Position numbers and translations under genes: made by a program. A DNA stretch of 64,000 nt, taken from Meghimatium bilineatum. Its lineage: Eukaryota > Mollusca > Gastropoda > Stylommatophora > Philomycidae. Where the stretch lies: the NCBI GenBank assembly GCA_034231615.1, contig CM067317.1, positions 270,501 to 334,500 of the forward strand, in the 5' to 3' direction. The notes below the pieces were generated by a model. That model worked only from the letters and a program-made list of their open reading frames with translations. It had not been told where the DNA came from and made no database searches. Shown here piece after piece: positions 3,576 through 63,755 of the stretch (within the stretch, counting starts at the first letter, position 1; each line of letters opens with the position of its first letter).

Positions 3576-3702
3576 CTGTTCCAGCTGAGTAAAACCTTCA
3601 ATGCCTTTTTGCCCCACAAAGTACCATACATCTCGGAAACGAAGATTCTGAATGTGACCACTGCCCAGTTTGTTTAGCAAATCCCTGGCACTTTGTCCTA
3701 GT
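3576..3702 (-). CDS. Exon 13: FRDVW segment of GG domain 2
   Basis: 127 nt, acceptor ctaccacag, donor gtaatt, phase 2 to 0. It encodes LGQSARDLLNKLGSG, then LRFRDVWYFVGQKGIEG, ending QLEQ. FRD-x-W-x-F-x-G-x-KG is the hallmark of FAM3 domains. Length matches exon 8. The last cysteine exon and the stop codon must lie beyond the low-coordinate edge. Confidence 0.88.
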
Positions 3703-3716
3703 CTGTGGTAGCAACC

Positions 3717-4255
3717 AAATCATATCTTAATAAGAAAATACTCTCATCCCATGTCATCCAAAACATAACTTAAGAACATACTCTCATCCCATGTCATCTA
3801 AATCATAACTTAAGAACATACTCTCATCCCATGTCATCTAAATCATAACTTAAGAACATACTCTCATCCCATGTCATCTAAATCATAACTTAAGAACATA
3901 CTCTCATCCCATGTCATCAAAAAAATAACTTAAGAACATACTCTCATTCCATGTCATCCAAATCATAACTTAAGAACATACTCTCATCCCATGTCATCTA
4001 AATCATAACTTAAGAATATACTCTCATCCCATGTCATCCAAACAATAACTTAAGAACATACTCTCATCCCATGTCATCCAAAACATAACTTAAGAACATA
4101 CTCTCATCCCATGTCATCTAAAACATAACTTAAGAACATACTCTCATCCCATGTCATCCAAAACATAACTTGAGAACATACTCTCATTCCATGTCATCCA
4201 AAACATAACTTAAGAACATACTTTCATCTAATATCATCTAAACCATAACTTAATT
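3717..4255. repeat. 40-bp minisatellite abutting exon 13
   Basis: About 13 units with consensus tcataacttaagaacatact then ctcatcccatgtcatctaaa. The array begins about 14 bases upstream (in gene direction) of the exon 13 acceptor, so it forms the end of intron 12. Confidence 0.85.
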
Positions 4256-4304
4256 AGGAACACTCTCATCCCATGTCATCCACACTTATCTGCTCATTTA
4301 TCAA

Positions 4305-5165
4305 TCAATCAAGTTCCATACTGAATGGTGTAGGTGATCATGTTTCTCCACGACTTTCTGTCTCTTGTGTTATCAATAAGCTTGGTTGGTGTACTTCTCC
4401 CATGCCATAATACTAGTCCATCTAGCAACTTCTCTCTTTGTCGTCCCCAGTCTCTTCTCCCCTTGATCTTTCCAGTGGTTATTAAGTGTTCAAGGTGTGT
4501 TCTTCTCAGCACATGCCATAGGAACGTTAAGTGCCCTTAATGTATTATATAATTGATCTGTTTACACCAGCATCAATGAGAACACCTGCATTAGTTTTCT
4601 TAGCTGTCAAAGGTATTTTCATATTTCTTCTCAGAAACCACATCTCTGTAACCTCTAGTTTGTTTTGAATTTTTTTGTTTACAGTCCATGCTTCACATCC
4701 ATAAAAAAAATAGCTTCAATATAATATATCAGCACTTGAGTTCGGGTCTGCATTGATAGTGTTTCATCGCACAAAATGGTTCTCATTATTTGGAATGCAG
4801 ATTTGGCTTGTGCTGTATGACATTTTATCTCACTTGAGCATCTACTTTTCTGATGTTAACAGGGTGCGAAGATATTTCATTTTTTCAACTTGTGTTAATT
4901 TGGTGTCATTAATCGTTTATGTTGCATCTTGGTGATATACCGGCATGTCTCTTCCAGACAACCATTAATTCTGTTTTCTCCTCGTTTAAACTGAGGTCTT
5001 TATTTTCACTTTCTTTCACTACTTTATTTAACAGGGCTTGTAGTTCCTATTCATTTCCTGTGATCAGTACTGTGCCATCAGCATATCTTAAGTTGTTTAT
5101 GTTGAATTCTCTCACTGTTATTCTGGCATGTCTTCTATATTCATGCCACACTAAAAAAGTAACGT
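4305..5165 (-). mobile_element. RTE-like LINE, RT and C-terminus, decayed
   Basis: The minus strand reads NINNLRYADGTVLI (YADD-type catalytic box, second D lost), later KTELMVV, and at the 3' end RRTHLEHLITTGKIKGRRDW and REKLLDGLVLWHG, a C-terminus like RTE-BovB elements. Stops and frameshifts occur throughout. Confidence 0.65.
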
Positions 5166-5184
5166 TTAAATAGTTTATGATCTT

Positions 5185-5402
5185 TCAACTAAACTATCAA
5201 CTTTAACCTACCACTGTACTAGTCAGTTTAACTTTAACCTACCACTGTACTAGTCAGTTCAACTTTAACCTACCACTGTACTAGTCAGTTTAACTTTAAC
5301 CTACCACTTTACTGGTCAGTTAAACTTTAACCTACTAATGAACTGGTCTGTTCAACTTTAACCTACCATTGTACTGGTCAGTTCAACTTCAACCTGCTGG
5401 TC
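5185..5402. repeat. About 33-bp minisatellite, 6-7 units
   Basis: Repeated actttaacctaccactgtac followed by tagtcagtt(t/c)a, with increasing divergence towards 5400. Intron 12 of the host gene. Confidence 0.8.
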
Positions 5403-5890: not shown

Positions 5891-5975
5891 TTTTTGGAAG
5901 CATCATCAGCAATAACAGCGATAACAACTTCATTTACATGCAGAGATTCAAGCATAAGCTCCAGGTCTGTGCTGT
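5891..5975 (-). CDS. Exon 12: helix and DDAS segment of GG domain 2
   Basis: 85 nt, acceptor atatctcag, donor gttagt, phase 1 to 2. It encodes DSTDLELMLESLHVNEVV and IAVIADDASK. Length and phases are identical to exon 7. Decayed copies of this exon with its acceptor occur at 6598-6704 and 7862-7935, with an acceptor-side piece near 10495-10550. Confidence 0.87.
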
Positions 5976-11115: not shown

Positions 11116-11194
11116 GCTTGCAAGACTTCTTGAATGGGATGTTTGTACATGTGTATGTTAACACACAAGGTGACAATGGAGACCTGTGAGCAAT

Positions 11195-14100
11195 TCTAGT
11201 GCTATTGTTCTGTGTGCAACAATTCTAGTGCTATTGTTCTGTGTGCAACAATTCTAGTGCTATTGTTCTGTGTGCAACAATTCTAGTGCTATTGTTCTGT
11301 GTGCAACAATTCTAGTGCTATTGTTCTGTGTGCAACAATTCTAGTGCTATTGTTCTGTGTGCAACAATTCTAGTGCTATTGTTCTGTGTGCAACAATTCT
11401 AGTGCTATTGTTCTGTGTGCAACAATTCTAGTGCTATTGTTCTGAGTGCAGCAATTCTAGTGGTATTATTCTGTGTGCAACAATCCTTGTGCTATTGTTC
11501 TGTGTGCAGCAATCCTCGTGTTATTGTTCTGTGTGCAACAATCATTGTGTTATTGTTCTGTGTGCAACAATCATTGTGTTATTGTTCTGTGTGCAGAAAT
11601 CCTTGTGTTATTGTTCTGTGTGCAACAATCATTGTGTTATTGTTCTGTGTGCAACAATCATTGTATTATTGTTCTGTGTGCAGAAATCCTTGTGTTATTG
11701 TTCTGTGTGCAACAATTCTAGTGCTATTATTCTGTGTGCAACAATCCTTGTGTTATTGTTATGTGTGCAACAATCCTTGTGTTATTGTTCTGTGTGCAGC
11801 AATTCTAGTGCTATTGTTCTGTGTGCAGAAATTCTAGTGCTATTGTTCTGTGTGCAACAATTCTAGTGCTATTATTTTGTGAGCAGCTATTCTAGTGTTA
11901 TTGTTCTGTGTGCAACAATTCTAGTGCTATTATTCTGTGAGTATTCTAGTGTTATTGTTCTGTGTGCAGAAATTCTAGTGCTATTATTCTGTGTGCAACA
12001 ATCCTTGTGTTATTGTTCTGTGTGCAACAATTCTAGTGCTATTATTCTGTGTGCAACAATCCTTGTGTTATTGTTATGTGTGCAACAATCCTTGTGTTAT
12101 TGTTCTGTGTGCAGCAATTCTAGTGCTATTGTTCTGTGTGCAGAAATTCTAGTGCTATTGTTCTGTGTGCAACAATTCTAGTGCTATTATTTTGTGAGCA
12201 GCTATTCTAGTGCTATTGTTCTGTGTGCAACAATTCTAGTGCTATTATTCTGTGAGTATTCTAGTGCTATTGTTCTGTGTGCAACAATTCTAGTGGTATT
12301 ATTCTGTATGCAACAATTATAATGCTATTGTTCTGTGTGCAGCTATTCTAGTGCTTTAGTTCTGTGTGCAACAATTCCAGTGCTATTATTCTGTGTGCAG
12401 CAATTCTAGTGTTATAGTTCTGTGTGCAACAATTCTAATGCTATTGTTCTGTGTGCAGCTATTCTAGTGCTTTAGTTCTGTGTGCAACAATTCCAGTGCT
12501 ATTTTTCTGTGTGCAGCAATTCTAGTGTTATTGTTCTGTGTGCAACAATTCTAGTGCTATTATTCTGTGTGCAGCTATTCTAGTGCTATTGTTCTTTGTG
12601 CAGCAATTCTAGTGCTATTATTCTGTGTGCAACAATTCTAGTGCTATTTTTCTGTGTGCAGCAATTCTAGTGCTATTATTCTGTGTGCAGCAATTCTAGT
12701 GCTATTGAACTGTGTGCAACAATTCTAGTGCTATTTTCTGTGTGCAACAATTCTAGTGCTATTATTCTGTGTGCAACAATTCTAGTGCTATTGTTCTGTG
12801 TGCAACAATTCTAGTGCTATTGTTCTGTGTGCAACAATTCTAGTGCTATTTTTCTGTGTGCAACAATTCTAGTGCTCTTATTCTGTGTGCAACAATTCTA
12901 GTGCTATTGTTCTGTGTACAGCAATTCTAGTGCTATTGGTCTGAGTGCAGCAATTCTAGTGCTATTGTTCTGTGTGCAACAATCCTTGTGTTATTGTTCT
13001 GTGTGCAACAATTCTAGTGCTATTATTTTGTGAGCAGCTATTCTAGTGTTATTGTTCTGTGTGCAACAATTCTAGTGCTATTATTCTGTGAGTATTCTAG
13101 TGTTATTGTTCTGTGTGCAGAAATTCTAGTGCTATTATTCTGTGTGCAACAATCCTTGTGTTATTGTTCTGTGTGCAACAATTCTAGTGCTATTATTCTG
13201 TGTGCAACAATCCTTGTGTTATTGTTATGTGTGCAACAATCCTTGTGTTATTGTTCTGTGTGCAGCAATTCTAGTGCTATTGTTCTGTGTGCAGAAATTC
13301 TAGTGCTATTGTTCTGTGTGCAACAATTCTAGTGCTATTATTTTGTGAGCAGCTATTCTAGTGCTATTGTTCTGTGTGCAACAATTCTAGTGCTATTATT
13401 CTGTGAGTATTCTAGTGCTATTGTTCTGTGTGCAACAATTCTAGTGGTATTATTCTGTATGCAACAATTATAATGCTATTGTTCTGTGTGCAGCTATTCT
13501 AGTGCTTTAGTTCTGTGTGCAACAATTCCAGTGCTATTATTCTGTGTGCAGCAATTCTAGTGTTATAGTTCTGTGTGCAACAATTCTAATGCTATTGTTC
13601 TGTGTGCAGCTATTCTAGTGCTTTAGTTCTGTGTGCAACAATTCCAGTGCTATTTTTCTGTGTGCAGCAATTCTAGTGTTATTGTTCTGTGTGCAACAAT
13701 TCTAGTGCTATTATTCTGTGTGCAGCTATTCTAGTGCTATTGTTCTTTGTGCAGCAATTCTAGTGCTATTATTCTGTGTGCAACAATTCTAGTGCTATTT
13801 TTCTGTGTGCAGCAATTCTAGTGCTATTATTCTGTGTGCAGCAATTCTAGTGCTATTGAACTGTGTGCAACAATTCTAGTGCTATTTTCTGTGTGCAACA
13901 ATTCTAGTGCTATTATTCTGTGTGCAACAATTCTAGTGCTATTGTTCTGTGTGCAACAATTCTAGTGCTATTGTTCTGTGTGCAACAATTCTAGTGCTAT
14001 TTTTCTGTGTGCAACAATTCTAGTGCTCTTATTCTGTGTGCAACAATTCTAGTGCTATTGTTCTGTGTACAGCAATTCTAGTGCTATTGGTCTGAGTGCA

Positions 14101-14877
14101 GCAATTCTAGTGCTATTATTCTGTGTGCAACAATCCTTGTGTTATTGTTCTGTGTGCAACAATTCTAGTGCTATTGTTCTGTGTGCAACAATTCTAGTGG
14201 TATTATTCTGTGTGCAACAATTCTAGTGCTATTGTTCTGTGTGCAGCTGTTCTAGTGCTTTAGTTCTGTGCGCAACAATTCCAGTGCTATTATTCTGTGT
14301 GCAGCAATTCTAGTGTTATTGTTCTGTGTGCAACAATTCTAGTGCTATTATTCTATGTGCAGCTATTCTAGTGCTATTGTTCTGTGTGCAACAATTCTAG
14401 TGCTATTATTCTGTGTGCAACAATTCTAGTGCTATTGTTCTGTGTGCAGCAATTCTAGTGCTATTGTTCTGTGTGCAGCAATTCTAGTGCTATTGTTCTG
14501 TGTGCAACAATTCTAGTGCTATTGTTCTGTGTGCAACAATTCTAGTGCTATTGTTCTGTGTGCAACAATTCTAGTGCTATTGTTCTGTGTGCAACAATTC
14601 TAGTGCTATTTTTCTGTGTGCAACAATTCTAGTGCTATTATTCTGTGTGCAACAATTCTAGTGCTATTGGTCTGAGTGCAGCAATTCTAGTGCTATTGTT
14701 CTGTGTGCAACAATCCTTGTGTTATTGTTCTGTGTGCAACAATTCTAGTGCTATTGTTCTGTGTGGAACAATTCTAGTGCTATTGTTCTGTGTGCAACAA
14801 TTCTAGTGCTATTATTCTGTGTGCAACAATTCTAGTGCTATTGTTCTGTGTGCAACAATCCTTGTGTTATTGTTCTG
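11195..14877. repeat. 29-30-bp minisatellite, 3.7 kb, with an internal 1151-bp duplication
   Basis: More than 120 units of attctagtgctattgttctg followed by tgtgcaaca, with variants (cagcta, cagaaa, gagtatt). Marker variants recur 1151 bases apart, for example gctattgaac at 12701 and 13852, so about 11.87-13.02 kb was copied to 13.02-14.17 kb almost without change. Its CNNxxxVIVLC-type ORFs are repeat artefacts. Intron 11. Confidence 0.92.
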
Positions 14878-14927: not shown

Positions 14928-14991
14928 CATCAAATCTGCTTACCAAACGTGTAAGAATACATCAAATGTACTCACCAAATGTGTAAGTATC
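14928..14991 (-). repeat. 32-bp direct duplication of the exon 11 end and donor
   Basis: The units begin catcaaat at 14928 and 14960. The upper unit covers the last 16 coding bases of exon 11 and its donor; the lower copy keeps a donor-like gtaagc. Use of the distal donor would add a stop codon (TGA) shortly after the true border. Confidence 0.7.
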
Positions 14992-15085
14992 CATATGTGA
15001 CAGTCTAGAAGGCTCAAGGGTTTCATGGTCAAGAATTACAACATTAAACCCTCGACCTCCATCGTTAGTTTTCCCATCAATGCGT
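14976..15085 (-). CDS. Exon 11: GRGFN core and DTY segment of GG domain 2
   Basis: 110 nt, acceptor taatttcag, donor gtgagt, phase 2 to 1. It encodes RIDGKTNDGGRGFNVVILD and, later, SHMDTYTF. It equals exons 5+6 of domain 1 in length (59+51), so one intron differs between the domains. The last 16 coding bases plus the donor are duplicated in the intron (14928-14959). The large 30-bp array starts about 100 bases below the donor. Confidence 0.88.
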
Positions 15086-15149
15086 CTGAAATTATTACCA
15101 TCTGTCAGTGTCAAAATACAATACAAATACCAAAGTACAAATACATCAC

Positions 15150-21030: not shown

Positions 21031-21179
21031 AAAATGTTCTCATAAAATAGCCACCAAAAATGTATTCAAGTAAAATTACCCACACAAAAATGTATTCACG
21101 TAAAATTACTCAAACAAAAATTTACACACAGAAAATTACTACAAAAAAATGTACTCACATAAAATTACCCACACAAATA
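21031..21179 (-). repeat. 30-bp tandem repeat whose last unit contains the exon 10 donor
   Basis: Five units (21031, 21061, 21091, 21121, 21150) of tgtattcacgtaaaattac followed by ycacacaaaaa. The unit at 21150-21179 spans the donor: 21159-21179 is coding. Other units carry donor-like gtgaat in the same place. Confidence 0.8.
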
Positions 21180-21342
21180 CTGGGTTTTCTCAAGTTTCCT
21201 TGCCCTGTGTCCACAGCCACAGCTGTACTACCATGTGGGCATGGCTGAGAGAGACCACAGTTGTCATAGCGAGCTCCAAGTTTCATCTCATCTCCTTGTA
21301 GCACATCCGGCATTGTATTATCCATACTGACTCTATCTCCCA
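21159..21342 (-). CDS. Exon 10: linker and start of GG domain 2
   Basis: 184 nt, acceptor gtgtctag, donor gtgagt, phase 1 to 2. It encodes LGDRVSMDNTMPDVLQGDEM, then KLGARYDNCGLSQPCPHGST and KPSICVGNF. NCGLSQPCP and ICV match the CGxxxPCP and ICx signatures of FAM3 domains. An earlier GT (GGGTAA) would break the frame, so gtgagt was chosen; it also keeps the ICV-to-GRG spacing equal to domain 1. Tandem repeats built on both splice sites flank it. Confidence 0.88.
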
Positions 21343-21540
21343 CTAGACACAGAAACAAAAATGTGTACAAATTAAACTATAGACACAAAAACAAATATGC
21401 ACAGATTACACTAGACACACACAAACAAATGTGTATAGATTACACTAGACATAAATAAAAAATATGCACTGATTACATTAGAAACACAAAAAAATGTGTA
21501 CAAATAACACTAGACATATATAAAAAAGTGTATAAAACAC
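21341..21540 (-). repeat. About 33-bp tandem repeat seeded at the exon 10 acceptor
   Basis: Six units starting cactagacac (or ctatagacac, cattagaaac) at about 21341, 21375, 21408, 21442, 21475 and 21507. The first contains the real acceptor (minus strand gtgtctag). The others repeat acceptor-like tgtctag further upstream in the intron. Confidence 0.75.
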
Positions 21541-21589
21541 ACATACATAAAATGAGTACTGAACACTATAGTTACAATTATGTATATGT

Positions 21590-21735
21590 AATAATTATCA
21601 CTGTTTATTATGCAGTACCGTAGTAAGTTATCAGTCCATATTATACAATACTCTAATATGTTATCATTGAATATTATACAATAACCTAGTAAGTTATTAT
21701 CCATATTATACAATACCCTAGTAACTTAATAGAAG
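21590..21735. repeat. About 36-bp tandem repeat, part 1
   Basis: Units like accctagtaagttatcagtc followed by catattatacaat. The same repeat resumes at 22700-22775 and as a single unit near 23300, so the array was split by later insertions. Confidence 0.7.
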
Positions 21736-22700
21736 AACTTTACCAAGATCAAACGGCTGCAGTGAATTTAGAGGGCTATCTCTCATAGTGGTTTGAGGTA
21801 TGGAGTGGAGTAAGGCAGGGATATACACTTTTTATTTTTAAAATATAATGAGGAATGTGAGAGAAGACATACACAATGCTGACTATCATGCTTTAAACAT
21901 CAGTGGCTTTGAAATCCCTGAACTACGCTACGCAGACGACAAAGTGCTTCTTTCAAATGATATAAAGGGATTGAAACAACTAATCAAGAACACAAAGAAA
22001 TATAGCGAATCACAAAACTTATATATAAACACGCAAACAATAAAAATCATGTCAACAGATATAACAAAACAACAACCAAAAATCAGAATAGACAATACCG
22101 AGATAGAATGAGTGGATAAATTTGAATACTTAGGAGCAAACATCAACTGCGCAGGAGACTGCATGGCAGAAATAAGGAAAATATTGGCAATGGCATATTG
22201 TAAAATAACACAGTTGAAAAACATATGGAAAACAACAATATAGAAACAAAATTGTTATTGCTACAAACTTTTATTTTTCCGGTTGCAACATACAGCTGTG
22301 AAAGATGGACCCTAAGTAAGTCAGCGACAAAGAAGATGAACACCTTCGAGCTGAAATGCTATAGAAAGATACTTAGAATATCATGGAAGGAAAAAAAGAG
22401 AAACTCAGATATTATAAACACATTGAACATTACAGAGTGTTGGTTACTAAACACAATAACAAAAAGAAAACTACACCTGTTTGGTCATATAAAGAGACAC
22501 AACTGTTTAGAAATACAAATAATGGAGGGCAGAGTACCTGGGAAGAGGAGAAAGGGCAGACAAAATGTGATGATGGACTGATGACATTAAAGATAACATG
22601 AATACATCATTGGAAAATGCAAGCAGCATCACCCAAGACAGAAGGGGGTTCAGAGAGTTCATTGGGAAGACAACGTTCTGGAAGGAATACGTCACATGAC
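21736..22700 (+). mobile_element. LINE-D, RT core to 3' end
   Basis: Reads GVRQGYTL, IPELRYADDKVLLSNDIKGL (YADD intact), EYLGANINCAGD, YRKILRISWKEKKRNSDI and LFGHIKRHNCLEIQIMEGRV, then GKRRKGRQ, an RTE-BovB-like C-terminus. Frameshifts and stops separate at least four pieces. It interrupts the 36-bp array. Confidence 0.75.
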
Positions 22701-22775
22701 ACACCCTAGTAAGTTATCACTGTTTATTATACTACACCCTAGTAAGGTATCACTCCATATTATACAATACTCTTT
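22700..22775. repeat. About 36-bp tandem repeat, part 2
   Basis: Two units (accctagtaagttatcactg), continuing the array at 21590-21735 after the LINE-D insertion. Confidence 0.65.
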
Positions 22776-22779
22776 CATG

Positions 22780-22871
22780 GATTGCAGTTGAACTACAGAC
22801 ATCGAGCTAAATTATCAGTTTTGCATGCATCATCACTGTATTCTCTTACTATTATCATTTGCTCCTACGAC

Positions 22872-22927
<56 letters not shown>

Positions 22928-23225
22928 ACTATTTAATATTTTCTTCCTACTGTTTGGTTATATGTGCTCTGTGGTTTCCTCTTTTTCTAGTCTGTTCTTG
23001 CCGTATTTTCCTCTTCTCTCCCTCTCTCTCTCTCATCTGATCTCTCCTACCATATTCATGTGCTCTTCTCTTACACTATGATTGTTTGTTTGTAATATCC
23101 ATTGTCTGTTGCTTGTTTGTGTCCTTATGAAGACTTCTTTGTCGAAACGTCATCTGTCACTGTGTCTCGTTGTTAGGGTGTTTTATACTTAGTATGGTAA
23201 CACTTATACCTTTTTCCATTCATTT
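22780..23225 (+). mobile_element. PLE 3' tail with (TC)n and a hammerhead-like motif
   Basis: Contains a (tc)n run (22876-22925), a second ct-rich stretch, and at 23124-23150 cttatga-agac-ttcttt-gtc-gaaacgt, close to the 3' motif of the PLEs at 27.4 and 37.65 kb. No protein part remains. Confidence 0.5.
22876..22925. repeat. (TC)n microsatellite
   Basis: About 48 bases of uninterrupted tc dinucleotides inside the PLE tail. Confidence 0.9.
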
Positions 23226-23329
23226 TGATTTTTGCCTTGTGTTACCCCAGCCATATATTTCCTGTTGAGGGTTGCTACTTGATACTGGAACTTCTATCCC
23301 TTTATTATACAATACCCTAGTTTGCTGGT

Positions 23330-23640
23330 CTCCCTTTGTATGTTTTCTTACTCTGCATACACTTTGTAGTTTATTTATCATGTGAGTTTTAAATAACTCT
23401 CATTCAACCTTTATATCATCGCTTTTGCTTGGTAGGGTAGTGATGGTTTTGGCCATTTCTTCATATAGCATATATCTTATGTGTTCATTGTCTAGCTTTA
23501 TAAAGTTCAGTTGTGGTTCTTGTTTTTGTTTTTTGTTTGTTGGTGGACTTTCTTTTTGTTTCCATTTTTTTTAGCTATTACAACCGCACGGTGATCAGTA
23601 TCTATGTTTATATTTGGTATAATCCTTGCGTCTGTGTCAA
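23330..23640 (-). mobile_element. LINE-C endonuclease-end fragment, inverted
   Basis: The minus strand reads DADARIIPNINIDTDHRAVV and later IRYMLYEEMAKTITTLPSK. DH-R-xVV is the last catalytic motif of an APE endonuclease. It abuts the + part of LINE-C at 23641, head to head, as expected of a 5' inversion. Confidence 0.5.
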
Positions 23641-25329
23641 ACTTAAAAACATAGAACATAGAAAAATTCAAGATCCACAGATAGACACATCAGTACTAAA
23701 GCAACCGGACATACAACAAAATACATTGTAGATGTAAGAAATAGATATGAATATCTAATGACAGAATGAATGGAACAATACAGAAGGGAACATCAAGAGA
23801 AGAGAAAATGGACAATAAATAGGACTGCCTAAGAAAAAGTATTCAAACATCAAATGAAAATTTACCAATAAGAAAAGTCAAGAACAAACAAACATGGATG
23901 ACAGAAACAAAAATGACTAGAATCAAAATGCAGTGAAATAGAGGACATGTCAATACAATAGAAGGCAAAAGTAATGCATAAAGACATAAGGTAGATCACA
24001 AATAAGAAAAATCCTATAAATGGGGGTGGCTGCCTTAAAGATAACAACAGAAAAATTATATTTGATATAATAGAAGTACTTACAAGATGGGCAGATTATG
24101 TGACAACTTTTTGACGACCAATGGAACAAAAAAAAACTACAATACACAACAATGATGGACCAGCAATACTGAAAACAGCAGTAGAAAATGCAATAAAATG
24201 TGGAAAATCTGCAGGCCCCGACAACATAACAGCAGACATAATAAAAATTCTAAATGAATTTGGTGTGGATATTATCATAGTACTTTGCAATGACATATAT
24301 GAAAAAGGTCACATACCTAAAGACCTAACATCATCAATATTCATACCATTATCAGTATTCATACCATTACCTAAGAAGCCCAGGGCTGTGGACTGTACAG
24401 AATATAGAACAATAAGTCTAATGAGTCATCTAACTAAAATACTTCTCAAGATAATACATGAAAGAATTAAGAACAAGATATACACGGAGGTCAGTGAAGA
24501 ACAATTCGATTTTAGGAAAAACAAAGGAACCAGAGAAGCTATACATAGTATCCAACTAGTGGTAGATAAATGTATAGAAGTCTAAAAAAGTATCTATATT
24601 TGCTTCATAGACTACAGCAAGGCCTTTGAAAGTCCATGAAAAATTAATAAAATGTCTTCCAGAAAGAAGCATATATGGAAAAGACATCAGACTGATTAGA
24701 ATTATATATTGGAAACAGACTGCAGCAATAAGGTGTAAAAACAGCTACACACCATACATAGAAATAAGAAGAGAGGTAAGACAAAGATGCATTTTATCAT
24801 CAAGCCTATTTAATATCTACACAGAGAATATCTTTAAACATACAGAAGAAATGCCAGGACTTAAGATCAATGGGAAAATAATAAACAACCTGAGATATGC
24901 AGACAAACCTCTTCTTTTAGCAGAAAGTGAACATGAACTACAAAAACTAATAGATCAAGTCAATAAATCAAGTAAAGAATATGGACTGGATATAGATACA
25001 CAAAAAACAAAAACCATTATAATCAGAAAAGTCAGAGACAAATAAGCGTTAAACATACATGGAGAGAAACTACAACAAGTAGAAAATTATCAATATCTTG
25101 GACACATAGTCACAAATGATGACAGATATGAAACAGAAGTTAAAAGGAAAATATGAATGGCTAAAAGTACCTTCAATGACATGAGGAAAATAGTAATATC
25201 TAAACAAATTACAAACAAGTTAAATATTAGAATTATAACATGCTACATCAATTATATTTTAATGTATGGCTCAGAAACATGGACACTAAACAATTAGAAG
25301 AAAATAATTGATGCCTTTGAGATGTGGGC
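23641..25329 (+). mobile_element. LINE-C body: linker and reverse transcriptase
   Basis: Frames at 24121-24585 and 24626-25045 read AVENAIKCGKSAGPDNITAD, FIPLPKKPRAVDCTEYRTIS, YSKAFES, VRQRCILSSSLFNIY and LRYADKPLLL (the catalytic YADD changed to YADK). RTE-like. Several stops; inactive. A LINE-B fragment interrupts it at 25330. Confidence 0.75.
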
Positions 25330-26188: not shown

Positions 26189-26189
26189 T

Positions 26190-41800: not shown

Positions 41801-41821
41801 ATATTCACAGAACATAAATCT

Positions 41822-41870: not shown

Positions 41871-41875
41871 TAACA

Positions 41876-41985: not shown

Positions 41986-41998
41986 TGCAACAGCTTAC

Positions 41999-42083: not shown

Positions 42084-42154
42084 CTGATAACATGCAACAA
42101 CTTGTTAGCTCTAAATCACATATGGTCTATGATTGAATAATGTCACATACATTT

Positions 42155-43035
42155 ACACCTGTCTCACATGAACAAACATCACCACAAGTCTAACACCTGT
42201 CTCACATGATCAAACATCACCACAAGTCTAACACCTGTCTCACATGAACAAACATCACCACAAGTCTAACACCTGTCTCACATGATCAAACATCACCACA
42301 AGTCTAACACCTGTCTCACATGAACAAACATCACCACAAGTCTAACACCTGTCTCACATGAACAAACATCACCACAAGTCTAACACCTGTCTCATATGAT
42401 CAAACATCACCACAAGTCTAACACCTGTCTCACATGATCAAACATCACCACAAGTCTAACACCTGTCTCACATGAACAAACATCACCACAAGTCTAACAC
42501 CTGTCTCACATGATCAAACATCACCACAAGTCTAACACCTGTCTCACATGAACAAACATCACCACAAGTCTAACACCTGTCTCACATGAACAAACATCAC
42601 CACAAGTCTAACACCTGTCTCATATGATCAAACATCACCACAAGTCTAACACCTGTCTCACATGATCAAACATCACCACAAGTCTAACATCTGTCTCATA
42701 TGATCAAACATCATCACAAGTCTAACACCTGTCTCATATGATCAAACATCACCACAAGTCTAACACCTGTCTCACATGATCAAACATCATCACATCTGTA
42801 TCACATCTGTCTCAAATGATACAACATCACCACAGCTGAGTCTCACACTTGTCTCAAACGATACATCACAGCTGTCTCACACCTGTCTCAAACAATACAA
42901 CATCACCACAGCTGTCTCACACCTGTCTCACATGATCCAGCATCACCACAGCTGTCTCAAATGATACAACATTACCACAGCTGTCTCACATGATCCAACA
43001 TTACTGCAGCAGTCTCACACCTGTCTCACATGATC
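42155..43035. repeat. About 38-bp minisatellite above exon 7
   Basis: caccacaagtctaacacctg followed by tctcacatgatcaaacat (aa/tc variants alternate), more than 16 units to 42790. It then decays into shorter cagctgtctcacacctgtct units. Confidence 0.9.
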
Positions 43036-43065
43036 AAACATCACACCAGTTGAAATTTCATGGTA

Positions 43066-43198
43066 AAATGGGGTCTAGTTGTGGTTTGTCAGTCACATCA
43101 TAGACTTGAAATGTGGTCTAGCTATGGTTATCAGTCAAATCATAGACACGAAATGATTCCAAGCTATGTTTGTCAGTTAAATCATAGACATGGTGTAC
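43066..43198. repeat. 43-bp tandem repeat, 3 units, beside the exon 6 donor
   Basis: Units starting aaatggggtctag, aaatgtggtctag and aaatgattccaag, each with gtcagt(c/t)a-atcatagac. The array ends four bases from the exon 6 donor. Confidence 0.75.
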
Positions 43199-43202
43199 TC
43201 AC

Positions 43203-43253
43203 CATCAATGTATGTATCAAACACAATAGCTGACTTTAAAGTCAAAGTTGTGG
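43203..43253 (-). CDS. Exon 6: FDTY segment of GG domain 1
   Basis: 51 nt, acceptor tatatttcag, donor gtgagt, phase 1 to 1. It encodes STTLTLKSAIVFDTYID. The FDTY motif aligns with FD(T/M)Y in FAM3-like domains. A 43-bp, three-copy repeat (43066-43198) ends only a few bases from the donor. Confidence 0.85.
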
Positions 43254-43329
43254 CTGAAATATACAGAAGTAAATGTGAATTGATTAATAAGAACATAGAT
43301 GAACAATAAGAACACTTGAAATATAACAC

Positions 43330-43677
43330 TAGTCACATGATGCATGGTAGAGATAATGTTATAGATCATTCAAGGTGCAATAATCACACTGTTAGTCACA
43401 GTCAATAATCACAGTCTATAATAATATTCAGTATATAATCATATTGTTTGTCTATATTCACATTTTTAATTACAGTCAATAATCACACTGTTAGTCACAG
43501 TCAATAATCACAGTCTATAATAATATTCAGTATATAATCATATTGTTTGTCTATATTCACATTTTTAATTACAGTCAATAATCATATGGTTAGTCACAGT
43601 CAATAATCACATGGTTAGTCACAGTCAATAATCACATGGTTAGTCACAGTCAATAATCACATGGTTAGTCACAGTCT
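43330..43677. repeat. Satellite with caataatcacattgttagtc units, part 1
   Basis: Units of about 23 bp (agtcaataatcacatggtt) and a 112-bp direct duplication (43385-43480 and 43490-43580). It continues after the hAT element. Confidence 0.75.
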
Positions 43678-43685
43678 CTAATAAT
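43678..43685. repeat. hAT target-site duplication, left
   Basis: ctaataat, identical to 45859-45866. 8-bp duplications are the hAT signature. Confidence 0.9.
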
Positions 43686-45858
43686 TAGGAGTGTACCGGA
43701 TTTCGGCTAAGGCTCCGGTAAATCCGGAAATTATTACAAGGCCGGATTTGTGTTGCCTAGTCATGTGAATTTTCTGTACATGTTTCATGAGGCTAAGCTG
43801 AATCTTAGGCAATAGCAAAGTAGCACTTTCTGGTTTACTATTTCTCGCTGATGTAAATAAGAATTTTAAGAAACAAAAATTCATTTTGAATTTTAATGGT
43901 GCATTACTTCATGAGTTTGTGGGACTTGAATATTTCGAATTTTCGTAAATTTCTGTGGTCTTGCCGATAAAATAAAATGGCATCCAAATCAAAGTTATAC
44001 AGCACTGTTTGGGATTACTTCAAGGTTAAAGCCGATAATTCAGCGGAGGTAATATATAAGTTGTGTGACAAACAGTTATCGCGTGTGATCGTCCCAAAGA
44101 CTTCTCAACATCATCAATGTAGACCCATTTGTGATCAATGCACAGAAAAAGCTATGACAAAATGATGGAAAAGAAAGCATCACCAGTGGCCAGTGTATTG
44201 GTGTGGCGACCACATCTATGATGAATCCATGTTTGCACAAAGCAAGCAGCAGTACCCAGCAGTCAATTGTGCAGGCATGGGATGTGACCAAACTTTGGGG
44301 CATCAACTGCAGCTGTGTGTGCCTGATGGTCTTTTGAGTCTAAAGTATGTTGCTGACATCATCAGTACTGGAAGAAAATTGGTAAATTTTAAACACTCTT
44401 CGCCAGCAACTAATCGTTTGCATGAACTTCAAAATGAGTTAAACTTATAACAGCATGAGCTTATCCAGGACGTGACAACACGATGGAACTCAACATTCTA
44501 TATGCTACGACGTCTGTTAGAACAACGGAGCAGCATCAGTCTGTACTGTGTTGAAATTGATTCAGTACTGGACTAACGGCACAGCAGTGGACAGTCACGG
44601 AGAATGTGGTAGCTACTTTGGCTACCATCTGAAGAACACACACGTGAAATAAGTGCATCTCAGGCATCAATATCAGTTGTGATCCCATTAGTGAAAACAC
44701 TCATGACTTTCTCCAGAAAGAAGGTAGTGATGCTGGAATCAAAACTATGAAAGCAGCTCTGCTTGAAGCTGTTAGCAGCAGATTTGCGGACATTGAATAT
44801 AACGGTATTTACACCTGTGCCACACTACTGGATCGTCGATTCAAGCTGTGCTTCTTCTCCGAACTTGGCAGAAGTGATGCATGAGTCCATCTGATGTTAG
44901 CAGCTAACTCCATTATTGATTCAGCAAACACAGTCAGTGCACAGGATCCATCAGCTACTAGTAGTAGTACTAGTGTTTTGACTTCTGTGAGCACTGCCAC
45001 ACAGTACGAGTCCAGCCTATAGAGCTGTTTTGAAACAATTGTCGAGGAAAATCCCACCGCAGATCGTTCTGCAAGTGCCGAAGGCAACAGCATTAACACT
45101 GAGATGACACAGTACCTGTCAGAGACACTTCAAACTCGACAGTCAGATCCAGTTTCATAGTGGCATGCCAATAAGTAAAGATTTTCAAGTATGACTAGAC
45201 TGGCGCAGGCATTTCTTGCACCACCACCTACAAGTGTGCCTTTGGAAAGGCTGTTCAGTACTGCAGGAGAAATTATCACTGACCACTGTAGTAGCATTGT
45301 ACCACAAAATGCGGAAACATTGATTTTCCTGAAATACAACTCGTCCCTTCTTGACTAAGAGTTCAACTTCACATCCATAATGAAGGCTGACTGACTAAAA
45401 TAGTCAAATTACTGAATGAATGTATTTCAATAAATTCAATCTGTTCAATGTACTGTTGTTGTGAATTGTAACTCAGCTGCCAATTAGCCAACTGAAAAAA
45501 ATGTTAAAACTAAAAACTGAAAACTAAAAATTAAAATTACTAAATTAGCATTATGTGCTTGTGTATTATGTTTCATCTTGAACTTATGGAACTTAATATT
45601 ACTTATTCTACTGTAAATATAATTATTTTACATTTAAATGATTTAATATGAGTATATGGCATCATTGTCATGTCTATAGTAATGAACTGCAGTAATAAAC
45701 AGTTGAGTGACTCCACTCACCTAAGTCAAGTGATGTAGTACGTTTTTTAATTATAATTTTTTTATTTGTAGCTCCGGCTCCTGCCGGATTTCACTTCATA
45801 AATCCAGCCAAATCTGGATCCGGCCGGATCTCAAAAATTTGAATCCGGTACAGCCCTA
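43686..45858 (+). mobile_element. hAT DNA transposon, 2173 bp, with TIRs and 8-bp TSD
   Basis: The left end taggagtgtaccggattt and the right end (reverse strand) tagggctgtaccggattc pair as terminal inverted repeats, with several ccggat motifs just inside both ends. TSD ctaataat on both sides. It carries a broken BED-finger/hATC transposase. It sits inside the tandem satellite of intron 5. Confidence 0.92.
43977..45358 (+). pseudogene. hAT transposase (ZBED-like), inactivated
   Basis: The 5' frame has KLYSTVWDYFKVKADNSAEV, the start of a BED-type zinc finger. The middle reads LIQDVTTRWNSTFYMLRRLL, the hAT RW motif. The 3' frame reads FLAPPPTSVPLERLFSTAGE and ETLIFLKYNSSLLD, the hATC dimerisation region. 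At least five frameshifts or stops, for example at 44162-44164, 44447-44449 and 45020, separate these parts. In active hAT elements this enzyme cuts and pastes the element in the nucleus; this copy cannot. Confidence 0.88.
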
Positions 45859-45866
45859 CTAATAAT
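45859..45866. repeat. hAT target-site duplication, right
   Basis: ctaataat, perfect match to the left copy. Confidence 0.9.
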
Positions 45867-46205
45867 ATTCAGTAAACAATCACATTGTTTCTCTATATGC
45901 ACATTTTTAATCAGTCAATAATCACATTGTTAGTCAGTCAACAATCACATTATTAATCAGTCAATAATCACATTTTAGCTACACTATATAATCATGTTAG
46001 TAACACTCTATAATCACATTGTTAGTGACAGGCAATAATCACATTGTTAGTGACACTCAATAATCACTGTAATAAGTCACTCTATAATCACATTGTTAGT
46101 CAAGTCAATAATCACATTGTTAATCAAATCACATTGTTAGTCACAGTCACTAATCACACAGTTAGCACTGTCAATAATCACATTGTTAGTCAGTCTATAA
46201 TAACA
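45867..46205. repeat. Satellite with caataatcacattgttagtc units, part 2
   Basis: Same family as 43330-43677, continuing on the far side of the hAT element, and again at 46915-47035 beyond LINE-H. Confidence 0.75.
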
Positions 46206-46209
46206 AAAA

Positions 46210-46905
46210 ACGTTATCACAAAATGCCAATGTTGATGATGAAGTGTATACTAGCATCGCCAAGGCAAGCAGCACTTGCAGTAGATTGTAAGAAAATGTGT
46301 GGCATATAAATGGCATTAACCTACATACTAAGCTGAAAGTTTACAGAACAGTGGTACTTTCAGTGCTGTTATATGTTAGTGAAACATGGACTGTGTATAT
46401 ACGTCATGTGTGGAAACTCGATCACTTTCACACAACTTGTCTCAGAAAAATTATGAACATTAGATGGCAAGACAAGAATCCAGATACCACTGTCTATCGC
46501 CTGTCAAAGAAAATTCTCTATGGTGAGTTGGAGAAGGAGGATCTCAAGGTGGCCAAAAGAAGCACTACAAGATGCATTAAAGACCTCACTGAAAGCCTTC
46601 GAAATAGACCAAGATATATGGGAAGAACGTATACAAAATATAGTTACATTGCGATCTACAATCAAAAAAGGTGCAGCAATGTTTGAAAAAAGATGTGCAG
46701 CAGTTCAACAGTGGAGAGTTGTTAGAAACTCACAGTTAAACAAAACATCATCTACAGTGATCATTACATGCCCAATTGTCCACGCACATTTGCGGCCAAA
46801 TAGGGATTATTGGCCGGACTCATAAGCAAGGACATAATGCTAACTAAATTTTCAAAAGTGGATGTAACAAATGATCATCATCACTTGTGAACGAACAACA
46901 TAATC
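46210..46905 (+). mobile_element. LINE-H 3' half
   Basis: Reads INLHTKLKVYRTVVLSVLLY, ETWTVYIRHVWKLDHFHTTC and LRKIMNIRWQDKNPDTTVY, then ALKAFEIDQDIWEERIQN and ACPIVHAHLRP-like sequence in shifted frames, ending in atgatcatcatcact. A C-terminus of APE LINEs found as minus copy at 55.1-55.66 kb. It splits the satellite. Confidence 0.65.
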
Positions 46906-46914
46906 TTACACTGT

Positions 46915-47035
46915 AACTCAGACTATAATCACATTGTTAGTCACAACATATAATCACAATGTTTGTCAGTCTATAATCACAATATATAAACACACTGTTA
47001 GTTACAGACTATAAACATGTTGTAATAGTGGTATT
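46915..47035. repeat. Satellite, part 3, next to exon 5
   Basis: ctataatcacattgttagtc units up to about 45 bases from the exon 5 donor. Confidence 0.65.
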
Positions 47036-47077
47036 CTATGACTGACTAGCTGACTAAGTCACTACTTGTGTACTTAC

Positions 47078-47136
47078 AGTCAATGAGAACTACATTCAAC
47101 CCTCTCCCAACATTGCCCACTTCAGCACTCATGTAC
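47078..47136 (-). CDS. Exon 5: GRGLN core of GG domain 1
   Basis: 59 nt, acceptor cttctacag, donor gtaagt, phase 2 to 1. It encodes YMSAEVGNVGRGLNVVLID, the VGRGxN signature of the FAM3/ILEI fold. With exon 6 (51 nt) it totals 110 nt, exactly the length of exon 11 in domain 2. Confidence 0.88.
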
Positions 47137-47640
47137 CTGTAGAAGTCACACAAGCACAAAGATAACATCTAAAAAATCAGGATAATAACAAATGGTATAT
47201 CTATATTCAATTGTAAAGATGTCATCTGTCAAGGTTGTAGCTGTACAGCATTGGATGTAACAACACAGTCCTCCACTGATTTCTGGATGAGTAGATCAAA
47301 ATCATGACCATGATTTTATCAGGTCTTCATAGACTTTCTTTGATCATCTCTTCTCCTTCTATCCTCATATGTTCCCTAATGAAACATTATTGACAGCAAA
47401 TAATTTGAATGGTCATTAAAATTGTCCTTATCAGGATCAATAAGGATCCAAAACTTGCTATAAGGATCTCGATGAACTATAATTACTGGAACCGTCTTTA
47501 TTGGAGCCGTGTTTGCAGGATATACACAAAGCAAGAGAGGATAGGAAACAAAGTTGGAACTACATATACACATATACAAAACGTGTTATATTGGCACTGT
47601 TTTCACAGGATTTAGTTTTGTATAGATGGTGCCAGTATGG
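47137..47640. other. Intron sequence, no clear feature
   Basis: One short stretch (aggatcaataaggatccaaa; 47433-47468) contains repeated aaggatc. No gene or array recognised. Confidence 0.3.
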
Positions 47641-47999
47641 AACTGTAATACTGACTCAAGATTAGAATTTGGATTGCCGAGGTACATCGGGAACAAAGAA
47701 ACAATACAGGTTAGAGGGGAAAGAAAAACCTAGATTAAGGAAAATTAGAGTAGGTTAGGAGTAAAATTAGACAGAAAAATAATAAAATTGGAATTGTATA
47801 ACAATGAAATTGCGAATTTTATGTTTTGCCCATGTACTGAAATTGTATTGGTTGCTGCATAACTGAATTTCTTTTCAGAGAATATACAATGAAAAATGGA
47901 AATGGAACTTCAGAAAGGGATACAAACTAAAGAGAAATCAATGAAGAAGTACAAAAAGGTCTATGTTATATCACATCAACCTATCCATACTATTTGGGT

Positions 48000-48570
48000 T
48001 TACATATATATTTCAGAGATCACAAGAATTACATTGGGTCCCCCCAGACCTAGAGAAGAAAATAACAGAAGTTGAACAGGAAGAGGAAGAAATAGACACA
48101 TAAAATGTACAGACCAGTAGCATGAATAAACCAGAACAGTAATTTGATAAACATGTTATTGCTAGTAAAAACGAACTAGAAATGATTGCTGTAACGATGC
48201 AGATGTTCAATAGCAAACAAACAAGCAGGGATAGTTCACGTGTTCGAACCTGCAAAGAAATAGAAAGTACAGATGAGAATAAAGAATCAAAGTCCAGAAA
48301 TGAACGACCTAGAGCATTACCAGAGAAAAACTTTAAATATAGGGAACCTAATAGACATAGTAGGCCAAATAGAAATAACCCAAATATTGGAGGATATCCG
48401 ACAAAATAATCACATTGATAAATAAATAAATATTTTCTACAGTAATCTACCTACCTTATTTGTATTAAGCCAAAAAGATATAGAAATTATGCTATGCCCA
48501 GATGGGTAGATTAAATTGTTATAATTGCAATAAAAGGGGACATATCTCCCAATGTTTTACAAGAAAGTAT
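48000..48570 (+). mobile_element. Possible LTR-retrotransposon gag relic with zinc knuckle
   Basis: A frame at 48182-48409 is rich in R, N, E and S (SSRVRTCKEIESTDENKES; NRHSRPNRNN) and is followed at about 48496-48560 by QMGRLNCYNCNKRGHISQCF, a zinc knuckle (CX2CX4HX3C, one residue short of the usual). No LTRs, protease or RT seen nearby. Weak. Confidence 0.35.
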
Positions 48571-48745
48571 AAGTGAGTTTACAAGTATTAATATGTAACA
48601 AGAAGTTTTCATTAAGTTTACAACAAGTATTGTGTTACAAGAAAGTATCAGTAAGTTTACAACAAGTATTGTGTTACAAGAAAGTATCAGTGAGTTTACA
48701 ACAAGTTTTGATGTGTTGCGAGAATGTATCATTGAGTATACAAGA
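48554..48745. repeat. About 45-bp minisatellite beside exon 4
   Basis: acaagaaagtatcagtgagt followed by ttacaacaagtattgtgtt, four to five units. It ends about 65 bases from the exon 4 donor. Confidence 0.8.
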
Positions 48746-48810
48746 ATCAACATGACAGAAAGCAATCATCTTAATATAAAATATAAAATAAGGATATCTA
48801 TAATACTAAC

Positions 48811-48919
48811 ACATGTCCTTGAAAGCAGATGAGAGGTGCATAGCCTGTTTGTGGTGTCTTCTCCCCAGTACGGATATAGAAGGAGAATTGATTGGCTGGG
48901 CATGTCACATCACAAGGGC
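48811..48919 (-). CDS. Exon 4: start of GG domain 1 (first cysteines)
   Basis: 109 nt, acceptor tgaaatgcag, donor gttagt, phase 1 to 2. It encodes PCDVTCPANQFSFYI and then APLICFQGH. The CxxxCP and ICF motifs correspond to the first three conserved cysteines of FAM3-type domains. The + strand reading of this stretch is a chance ORF. Confidence 0.85.
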
Positions 48920-49139
48920 CTGCATTTCATACAAACAAATAAAGGCAAATAATTGTTATTTATTTCTGCATGTGATGAAAGTGTCATGTGTGTGGACACA
49001 TGGATTACAAAATCCATCATGGATACTTACAAATCTGTCTCATCCACGTATTACAGTGCAAGAAACAGATCATTAATCCATTGAGCATGTAGAGATTAGA
49101 ACCCAGCGGAGAGTCCCCACATGTTCTCCAATTTCTTGC

Positions 49140-53489: not shown

Positions 53490-53890
53490 TATCATATGTT
53501 TTCCCAGTGGGAACATATGGATGTTAGACTTGGACTTATTAAGACAATATCCAAAAGAATAAAATCATTGAAATGAAGTGCTACAGAAAGATCCTATGAA
53601 TGGACAGAGAAAAAGAACATTGAAATTTTGAAATTACTGAAAATAAATAAAACAGTGGCTTCTAAATACCATCATAAGAAGAAAGCTACAGTATTTTGTA
53701 CACTTAAAGCGGCATGATGGTATTGAAAGGCTAATTCTGGAGGGCACAGTACCAGAGGTTGATGGACCATGACATCGAAGACTGTATGCACAAGTATCTT
53801 ACCAATGCAGGCCTGCTTGCCTGGGACAGAGAGGCATTCAGAGTATTCACGATGAAGACAACATACTGGAAAGAATATGTCACTTGATAT
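53490..53890 (+). mobile_element. LINE-D 3' fragment
   Basis: Reads EMKCYRKIL and, after stops, NAGLLAWDREAFRVF with TTYWKEYVT, matching the end of LINE-D at 22.33-22.70 kb (ggaaggaatacgtcacatga). Confidence 0.55.
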
Positions 53891-54041: not shown

Positions 54042-54086
54042 GCGATATATTCCCAGAAATGTTAGTGACATCCCAGATCTGACGTC
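54042..54086 (-). CDS. Exon 3: lumenal linker with two N-glycosylation sequons
   Basis: 45 nt, acceptor tcttttcag, donor gtaagt, phase 1 to 1. It encodes GRQIWDVTNISGNIS, with N-I-S twice (N53, N57). It is very short but is needed to keep the frame from exon 2 into exon 4, and both splice sites are strong. Confidence 0.78.
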
Positions 54087-59396: not shown

Positions 59397-59474
59397 CATC
59401 TGCAAGAAGGAATGACCGCAGCGTGTATGCAACCAGCACCAGAGAAATGAGCGCTAGTGAAAACTTTCTATATC
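59397..59474 (-). CDS. Exon 2: signal-anchor transmembrane segment
   Basis: 78 nt, acceptor ttcttccgtag, donor gtgagt, phase 1 to 1. It encodes GYRKF, then a hydrophobic stretch (LALISLVLVAYTL) and RSFLLAD. The basic residues before it and the lack of a cleavage-like end suggest an uncleaved type II anchor. Minisatellites lie on both sides (58.94-59.29 and 59.53-59.70 kb). Confidence 0.82.
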
Positions 59475-62120: not shown

Positions 62121-62329
62121 TTAGTTGTGGGGTAAAATGGAGAATAACAGCAATGATTACAACACCACACAAATACAATCTGATAATCAATCATGGAGAG
62201 ATTGATAATTAAAGATCAATCATGGAGAGATTGATGATTAAAGATGAAAGTAAAATGGCAAATACAAAATGAAAAAAGCTATCTATATTACACATGACAA
62301 TGTGACTGCCTATATCCTTACTGTTCGTC

Positions 62330-62475
62330 TTCTGTTGTATGTTTTAATTTTGTTTCAATCTTTGTTTTGATAAAAGTCTTCTGGTCAAAACATCAATTTG
62401 TGTGTGTTATTATGTGTGTCTTTAGTTATTAGCAAAACTTCATTACCCTATTTCTGGATTTACACTGGTGGAGAC
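62330..62475 (+). mobile_element. PLE 3' tail
   Basis: gttttgataaaagtcttctg and gtcaaaacatcaatttgtgt, then tagcaaaacttcattaccc, match the PLE 3' tail at 37.54-37.67 kb (reversed). A 30-bp direct repeat (atcatggagagattgat) lies just upstream at 62190-62240. Confidence 0.55.
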
Positions 62476-62534
62476 TTTACCATCATCTCAAGGTATACTG
62501 CAAAGAAAGGAATTTATTCCCTCCCTACCAATAG

Positions 62535-63530
62535 ATATTAATGTTCTGTGATAGTTATAAACCAAGAGATGGTAATGTTCTGTGTGTGTCACAGACCAGA
62601 AGATGTAATGTTCTGTGTGTGTCACAGACCAGAAGATGTAATGTTCTGTGTGTGTCACAGACCAGAAGATGTAATGTTCTGTGTGTGCTACAAACCAGAA
62701 TATGGTAATGTTCTGTGTGTGTCATAGACCAGAAGAAGTAATGTTCTGTGTGTGTCACAGACCAGAAGAAGTAATGTTCTGTATGAGTCACAGACCAGAT
62801 TATGCTAATGTTCTGTGTGTGTCACAGACAAGATTATGGTAATGTTCTGTGTGCTAAAAATCAGAACATGGTAATGTTCTGTGTGTAGAAAATGGTAATG
62901 TTCTGTGTGTGCTACAAACTAGAATATGGTAATGTTCTGTGTGTGCTACAAACTAGAATATAGTAATTTTCTGTGTGTGTCACAGACCAGATTATGGTAA
63001 TTTTCTGTGTGTGTCACAGACCAGATTATGGTAATGTTCTGTGTGTGCTACAAACTAGAATATAGTAATGTTCTGTGTGTGTGTCACAGACCAGATTATG
63101 GTAATATTCTGTGTGAGTGACAGACCAAAATATGGTAATGTTCTGTGTGTGTCACAGACCAGATTATGGTAATGTTCTGTGTGTGCTACAAACTAGAATA
63201 TAGTAATGTTCTGTGTGTGTGTCACAGACCAGATTATGGTAATTTTCTGTGTGTGTCACAGACCAGATTATGGTAATGTTCTGTGTGTGCTACAAACTAG
63301 AATATAGTAATGTTCTGTGTGTGTGTCACAGACCAGATTATGGTAATATTCTGTGTGAGTGACAGACCAAAATATGGTAATGTTCTGTGTGTGCTACAGA
63401 CCAGAATATGGTAATTTTCTGTGTGTCACAGACCAGATTATGGTAATGTTCTGTGTGTGTGACAGACCAAAATATGGTACTGTTCTGTGTGTGTTACAGA
63501 CCAGGACATGGCAATGTTCAGTGTGTGCCC
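62535..63530. repeat. 30-34-bp minisatellite, about 30 units
   Basis: gtcacagaccagattatggt followed by aatgttctgtgtgt, with gctacaaactagaatatagt variants. A 152-base block (about 62.94-63.12 kb) recurs further on, suggesting an internal duplication. It ends 160 bases from the exon 1 donor. Confidence 0.88.
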
Positions 63531-63689
63531 TATAGGTAGGCCAATAAATGTTAATGACTAATATGTGCTGTAAATACAGACACAAAACTAATGATTGCAA
63601 TTTCATAAGATGAAATTTGTTATTAATTCAGTGAAATATACAAATAAAAAGTTAACAATTTTTGATAAAATTCTGCGATCAGTGCTCAC

Positions 63690-63755
63690 CTCCACACTTT
63701 TTTATCACAAGTCTCCGCAATGGTCTAACAAATGACATGGACATCTTCCAGCAGC
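63690..63755 (-). CDS. Exon 1 (start codon exon) of the tandem GG/ILEI gene
   Basis: Acceptor AG lies just above 63755 and donor gtgagc just below 63690. The likely start ATG is at 63744-63742 with A at -3; a second in-frame ATG follows two codons later. It encodes the basic cytoplasmic tail (MSMSFVRPLRRLVIKKC) and ends in phase 1. The acceptor-like border suggests a 5' UTR exon further upstream. The short sequence before the ATG is also open (CWK), so an upstream start cannot be excluded. Its frame continues into exon 2 as GGYRKF. Confidence 0.7.

Follow-up and report, generated by a model that had tools for sequence, protein, structure and literature searches.

The stem of POMGnT1 is described as a domain that binds N-acetylglucosamine (GlcNAc), with Arg129, Asp179 and Arg207 directly involved, and GlcNAc binding is reported as well for human FAM3C and for Fam3L2 of C. 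elegans FAMP-1, while Fam3L1 of FAMP-1, which is without Asp179 and Arg207, did not bind it (PMC9802357). In that report, the N-terminus of FAMP-1 (M70.4) and of the product of an amphioxus gene consists of two FAM3-like domains, after which comes a domain resembling part of the POMGnT1 catalytic domain (PMC9802357), and another paper names M70.4 as a relative of both POMGnT1 and FAM3 (PMC8478517). The tandem-stem layout is therefore not new. Among the titles and abstract openings listed by our literature search there was no further account of it and none in a mollusc, which is not proof of absence as most subscription journals lay outside the coverage; in the passages covered of three other papers, POMGNT1 is merely named in an octopus expression list (PMC8976471), nematode famp-1 is merely named (PMC10970011), and FAM3A occurs in the references only (PMC9046764). 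Here we describe a gene of the gastropod mollusc Meghimatium bilineatum that begins in a stretch of 64,000 nucleotides, hereafter the window, which covers positions 270501-334500 of contig CM067317.1 (C20) in a 1.61-Gb genome of 32 contigs. A window position is the C20 position minus 270500.

The minus strand very probably carries one gene, which in our model has 25 exons and encodes a predicted type II membrane protein with a stem of two ILEI domains and a diverged POMGnT1-like domain (GNT-I, GT13); the protein would be of the FAMP-1 kind and a putative glycan reader. Exons, domains, the continuation of the gene, and kept or lost residues were computed. Thirteen exons in the window, assembled from motif matches, tblastn with FAM3C and splice-site enumeration, sum to 1188 nucleotides, i.e., 396 codons with zero stops, and the longest has 184 nucleotides. 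GT follows 13 of 13 exons and AG precedes 12 of 12 joined exons; the outer ends of the set are at 3576 and 63744 (63755 if exon 1 is extended back to the AG). The hidden split gene of the original prediction was thus rebuilt with identical counts. The exons, in window positions, are listed below.

63690-63744, minus strand: exon 1, from the ATG, short basic N-terminal tail MSMSFVRPLRRLVIKKCG; donor GTGAGC in the top 0.1% of GTs, start codon inferred without homology
59397-59474, minus strand: exon 2, hydrophobic, probably membrane-spanning segment YRKFSLALISLVLVAYTLRSFLLAD; ranked first by splice score among the 154 candidates lying between exons 1 and 4, phase fits
54042-54086, minus strand: exon 3, short 45-nucleotide linker, least certain; acceptor in the top 0.1%, donor in the top 2.4%, phase fits, second frame open too, without homology
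48811-48919, minus strand: exon 4, start of ILEI domain 1 with cysteines 1-3; tblastn and spliced FAM3C alignment, donor border exact, weak donor GTTAGT
47078-47136, minus strand: exon 5, GRGLN strand of domain 1 with the first Arg of the sugar triad; spliced alignment, both borders exact
43203-43253, minus strand: exon 6, FDTY segment of domain 1; spliced alignment, both borders exact
41999-42083, minus strand: exon 7, DDAS segment of domain 1 with the Asp of the triad; spliced alignment, both borders exact
40118-40244, minus strand: exon 8, FREN segment of domain 1 with the second Arg of the triad, 127 nucleotides like exon 13; tblastn 7e-4, spliced alignment with both borders exact
28335-28407, minus strand: exon 9, tail of domain 1 with the fourth cysteine (AGCF), 73 nucleotides, phase 0 to 1; donor GTAAGT in the top 1.9%, similarity to FAM3 tails
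21159-21342, minus strand: exon 10, linker between the domains, then the first part of ILEI domain 2 (CGLSQPCP, SICV); tblastn 0.004, spliced alignment with the donor border exact
14976-15085, minus strand: exon 11, domain 2 from GRGFN to DTYTF; spliced alignment, both borders exact, weak acceptor
5891-5975, minus strand: exon 12, DDASK segment of domain 2; spliced alignment, both borders exact
3576-3702, minus strand: exon 13, FRDVW segment of domain 2, after which the gene continues past the window (C20:269621 and below); tblastn 9e-7, own-genome ILEI match above the cut-off, both borders exact

Homology backs nine of the 13 exons: when FAM3C was aligned with splicing to the window DNA, seven were recovered with exact borders on both sides and two with an exact donor border. 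Splice strength, phase and position are the main basis for the remaining four (63690-63744, 59397-59474, 54042-54086 and 28335-28407), of which 54042-54086 is the weakest. Exon 2 has a hydropathy of 2.08 over 19 amino acids, so that this segment appears fit for the membrane anchor which had been predicted. Poor splice scores were found for the donor of 48811-48919 (top 29% of GTs) and for the acceptors of 14976-15085 (top 37% of AGs) and of exon 9 (top 21% of AGs). A longer exon 11 (14976-15101) has a better acceptor and was rejected for its wrong phase after exon 10. When 248 candidates for the tail exon of domain 1 were ranked by their resemblance to FAM3 tails, exon 9 shared the top score of 30 with two candidates at 25622/25636-25752 and with its own variant that uses a later donor; the entry and exit phases of exon 9 match those of the tail exon of domain 2.

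The FAM3C alignment reached 185.4 for domain 1 (21343-64000) and 188.8 for domain 2 (1-28334), against a maximum of 97.8 in 84 controls, each run at full window length (the opposite strand, the reversed and the complemented sequence, a reversed query, 40 shuffled queries and 40 dinucleotide shuffles). On the whole window the aligner mixed exons of domain 1 with exon 13, and at low intron cost it chained micro-exons, giving false end pieces of 9-39 nucleotides at 63690-63699, 53803-53820, 33520-33555, 25693-25701 and 1879-1917. Splice-site enumeration alone gave 28,077 candidates, and without homology the gene was not found among them.

The Pfam ILEI profile (PF15711) matched the joined window protein twice, at 1.5e-38 for the whole and at 4.2e-18 and 2.2e-19 for the single domains, which bears out the proposal of two ILEI/FAM3 domains in one frame. 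The order of the FAM3 motifs, said to occur twice, also held. The literal CxxPCP did not, being CDVTCP in domain 1 and CGLSQPCP in domain 2, and domain 1 has FREN in place of FRDxW; the sole literal match to CxxPCP, CRSPCP at 38423, is outside the exons. Each domain has four cysteines, in PCDVTCP, LICF and AGCF of domain 1 and in NCGLSQPCP, SICV and FCV of domain 2, the last outside the window. The sugar triad R129/D179/R207 (POMGnT1 numbering), placed by spacing in the PDB sequence, is kept in both domains, as in 7 of 7 aligned sequences, and both domains may therefore bind sugar.

The two domains share 38 identical residues over 140 aligned positions. Of the introns inside domain 2, all four coincide in alignment column and phase with introns of domain 1 (columns 40, 77, 106 and 149; phases 2, 1, 2 and 0), and domain 1 has two extra introns, one inside (column 60) and one at the domain edge. 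The tail exons of both domains are entered in phase 0 and left in phase 1. The matching intron sites point to the duplication of a multi-exon domain. In a small tree of ILEI domains both window domains were unplaced and FAM3 was not grouped with them (support 39), and this tree speaks neither for nor against an origin of FAM3 from such stems.

The analysis was extended to the downstream stretch C20:150501-270500. A fourth-cysteine exon of domain 2, predicted to lie in the adjoining DNA, was located at C20:269552-269621, 880 bp past the window edge. It was the first of 154 candidates, with a score of 41 (next 29), and none of 1290 background candidates reached 41. This exon has a donor and exits in phase 1, and it is followed by same-strand exons that match POMGNT1 in order. 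The gene runs on for about 87 kb downstream on the same strand, so that the "60-kb, 13-exon gene" of the original prediction stood as to its exons and not as to its extent, these being the first 13 of 25 exons in a model of about 147 kb. The full model encodes 785 amino acids with no internal stop. Its exons beyond the window are as follows.

C20:269552-269621, minus strand: exon 14, fourth-cysteine tail of domain 2 LSFAAFDGGWPKALTAKFCVPKT; partly from the aligner, fully from the candidate list
C20:268164-268213, minus strand: exon 15; human POMGNT1 query only
C20:266735-266807, minus strand: exon 16; one border varies between queries or settings
C20:254086-254145, minus strand: exon 17; one border varies between queries or settings
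C20:244117-244193, minus strand: exon 18; human and C18 queries at intron cost 16
C20:240150-240243, minus strand: exon 19; human and C18 queries at intron cost 16
C20:233954-234003, minus strand: exon 20; human and C18 queries at intron cost 16
C20:232630-232756, minus strand: exon 21; human and C18 queries at every intron cost tried
C20:228058-228187, minus strand: exon 22; human and C18 queries at every intron cost tried
C20:210813-210959, minus strand: exon 23; one border varies between queries or settings
C20:195340-195471, minus strand: exon 24; one border varies between queries or settings
C20:186929-187010, minus strand: exon 25, reads on to the stop; C18 query only

The spliced alignment of POMGNT1 after the stem scored 219.8, against a maximum of 107.7 in 42 controls. 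The aligner also gave spurious exons, among them, at high intron cost, C20:237895-238215, which is retroelement-like by eye. In a whole-genome search with the GNT-I profile (PF03071), for which the gene model was not used, 12 matches were obtained at E up to 10 (8 on contig C5, 3 on C18 and 1 on C20), and the sole C20 match, 232625-232753 on the minus strand, lies downstream of the gene in the window. A tblastn search with POMGNT1 on the downstream stretch and the window gave five matches, of which three were new (266700-266807, 232628-232756 and 228093-228188). With the 785-residue protein, Pfam returned ILEI twice (9.1e-38) and GNT-I at 3.9e-15 over profile positions 194-310 of 434, and the C-terminal half matched POMGNT1 (3.8e-29) and GnT-I (7e-12) in the PDB. 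The proposal of an unusual tandem protein of the FAM3 family is accordingly not supported: the gene continues into a POMGnT1-like GNT-I domain, so that the two ILEI domains form the stem of a protein resembling glycosyltransferases, a layout found in the published description (PMC9802357).

The C18 query comes from C18:6013173-6041328, where 14 exons encode a stretch of 516 amino acids with one ILEI domain and GNT-I at 2.6e-49. By its sequence this gene is the POMGNT1 ortholog, so that the animal has a regular, one-stem POMGNT1 in addition to the gene in the window. After the stem, identity to human POMGNT1 is 253 of 424 aligned positions for the C18 protein and 100 of 370 for the C20 protein. 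The GNT-I gene on C5, where the genome search found no ILEI match, is probably MGAT1. Two exon-wise searches of the genome gave five matches at E up to 10 in one (two on C18, two on C20 and a weak one on C2) and two in the other. The weak match, C2:85769422-85769616 on the minus strand, has an E of 1.84 and three stops inside, and is probably chance or a relic. An isolated FAM3 gene was not found in these searches, which are insensitive, as they saw only two of the window gene's own exons; the result fits the published idea of a later origin of the FAM3 genes.

In the enzyme-like part, the EED motif is kept, VIEEDILL being aligned with VLEEDLDI. EED is described as the DxD motif of GnT-I, GnT-II and POMGNT1 (PMC7014118). 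The WDWDMW segment of human and C18 POMGNT1 aligns to RAWSGW, and QHRAWSGWHLNIHG is without an acidic residue. The base equivalent to Asp291 of MGAT1 presumably lies in the WDWDMW segment. Asp291 is given as the catalytic base of MGAT1 (PMC7948508). With RAWSGW in place of WDWDMW, and in spite of the kept EED, the enzyme-like C-terminus is probably inactive.

From these features we infer the membrane topology, the location, the sugar binding and the inactivity of the protein. A short basic cytosolic tail would be followed by one membrane span, then by a lumenal stem of the two ILEI (FAM3-like) domains and by the diverged POMGnT1-like GNT-I domain, and the protein is most likely located in the secretory pathway. 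By analogy with the POMGnT1 stem and with Fam3L2 of C. elegans, each stem domain would bind a glycan with a terminal GlcNAc or similar sugar. The enzyme-like part may hold a nucleotide sugar and a metal through EED, probably without transferring the sugar, and the protein may read glycans while anchored in the membrane, or assist active enzymes as their partner. We propose the role of an anchored glycan reader for the whole protein with moderate confidence.

Several points weigh against the single-gene model as described. Exons chosen by the aligner agree in phase by construction, which is not independent proof. The homology-guided choice of exons also raises the Pfam values obtained with the joined protein, and this is why the alignment controls matter. 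Exons 1-3 have no homology, and exons 9 and 15 (C20:268164-268213) are weakly supported; 5 of 1290 background candidates also reach the score of exon 9, which the spliced aligner passed over. Exon 25 was found with the C18 query only, and about 60 POMGNT1 residues are without a counterpart between exons 23 and 24, where an exon may thus be missing from the model. The catalytic acid appears lost in an alignment over a diverged stretch, and an Asp about 10 residues upstream (IDAWDN) could serve in its place. If the donor of exon 9 is ignored, a stop follows after 6 further codons. This stop would also suit two adjacent one-domain FAM3-like genes, one ending in exon 9 after the fourth cysteine and the other starting before exon 10, as would the gaps of 11.7 and 7.0 kb that flank exon 9 and the weakness of that exon itself. 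We consider such a pair very improbable, however, since the donor is a GTAAGT and the domain 2 tail exon, which agrees with exon 9 in its phases, is followed by further coding exons. Moreover, nematodes and amphioxus have this fusion according to the literature, and a search of 21343-28334 for a first exon that starts at an ATG, encodes a hydrophobic segment and has a fitting phase returned none, although this is a weak test, such exons being rare everywhere (0 and 1 in two control stretches).

If the protein stopped after domain 2 and were a free-standing tandem FAM3 protein with a membrane anchor, this would agree with the PDB matches of the single domains, since domain 1 matched FAM3C at 4.7e-22 and domain 2 matched FAM3A at 2.6e-20, while the values against POMGNT1 were 1e-8 and 2.4e-9. 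This reading is nevertheless very improbable in view of the donor and the phase 1 exit of exon 14 and of the ordered POMGNT1-matching exons after it. Least probable of all is that a copy of POMGNT1 has become a pseudogene or is decaying: the GNT-I part is indeed far more diverged from human POMGNT1 than that of C18, the catalytic acids are apparently lost and some splice sites are weak, but zero stops occur in 785 codons over 25 exons, both sugar triads are kept, and the layout reported in nematodes and amphioxus is thereby old and not decaying.

Other sequence was observed in the introns and elsewhere. A 5' fragment of 18S ribosomal RNA lies in an intron at 37268-37700 on the plus strand and is well aligned to about 37536 (RF01960, 108.8 bits, 3.3e-30, in a 1.1-kb search); a scan of the whole window with Rfam at the gathering score gave no match. 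The fragment looks like a stray piece of ribosomal DNA beside retroelement-like sequence. On the minus strand, 38040-38731 has open stretches, one with YIGETGRRLAD, which we take to resemble a Penelope-type retroelement with a GIY-YIG end; the two pieces searched had no match in Pfam. An open stretch at 26867-27154 on the minus strand, retroelement-like by eye, matches DUF6451 in Pfam at 6e-9. At 11191-14877 and 31182-32750 the introns carry long minisatellites in which a 29-mer and a 20-mer recur about 128 and 78 times, respectively. CpG is strongly depleted window-wide, with 701 observed and about 2200 expected from the base counts, as in methylated genomes. An NCBIfam search gave no families, and a phage collection searched with window positions 41000-49000 gave no match. 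Elsewhere in the genome, the haemocyanin beta-sandwich profile (PF14830) yielded 50 hits, located on C15 and C22, one piece of which resembles haemocyanin chains of the PDB; this domain family is molluscan, in keeping with a mollusc as the source.

The gene in the window extends the FAMP-1 kind, described in nematodes and amphioxus, to a mollusc, and its presence with a regular POMGNT1 in one genome indicates that the FAMP-1 type is not merely a local form of POMGNT1. We further raise, as a tentative and rather doubtful idea, that a line of membrane-bound pseudo-glycosyltransferases whose two stems both bind sugar predates the main animal split and was kept beside normal POMGNT1, and that the free-standing FAM3 signalling proteins of vertebrates are broken-off stems of that line with a glycan as receptor. 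Compared with POMGnT1, the gene shares the N-terminal membrane segment, an ILEI stem and a GNT-I domain with EED, but has two stem domains instead of one, and the acids of WDWDMW appear lost. With FAM3A-D (ILEI, PANDER), which give the best single-domain matches in the PDB, it shares the ILEI domain, the cysteine pattern and the sugar triad; these proteins, however, have one domain and no enzyme-like part, whereas the window gene has two and GNT-I. By the published description, the tandem FAM3-like stem and the POMGnT1-like C-terminus are common to FAMP-1, the amphioxus gene and the gene reported here. Fam3L1 of the worm is without Asp179 and Arg207, whereas the mollusc gene keeps the triad in both domains.

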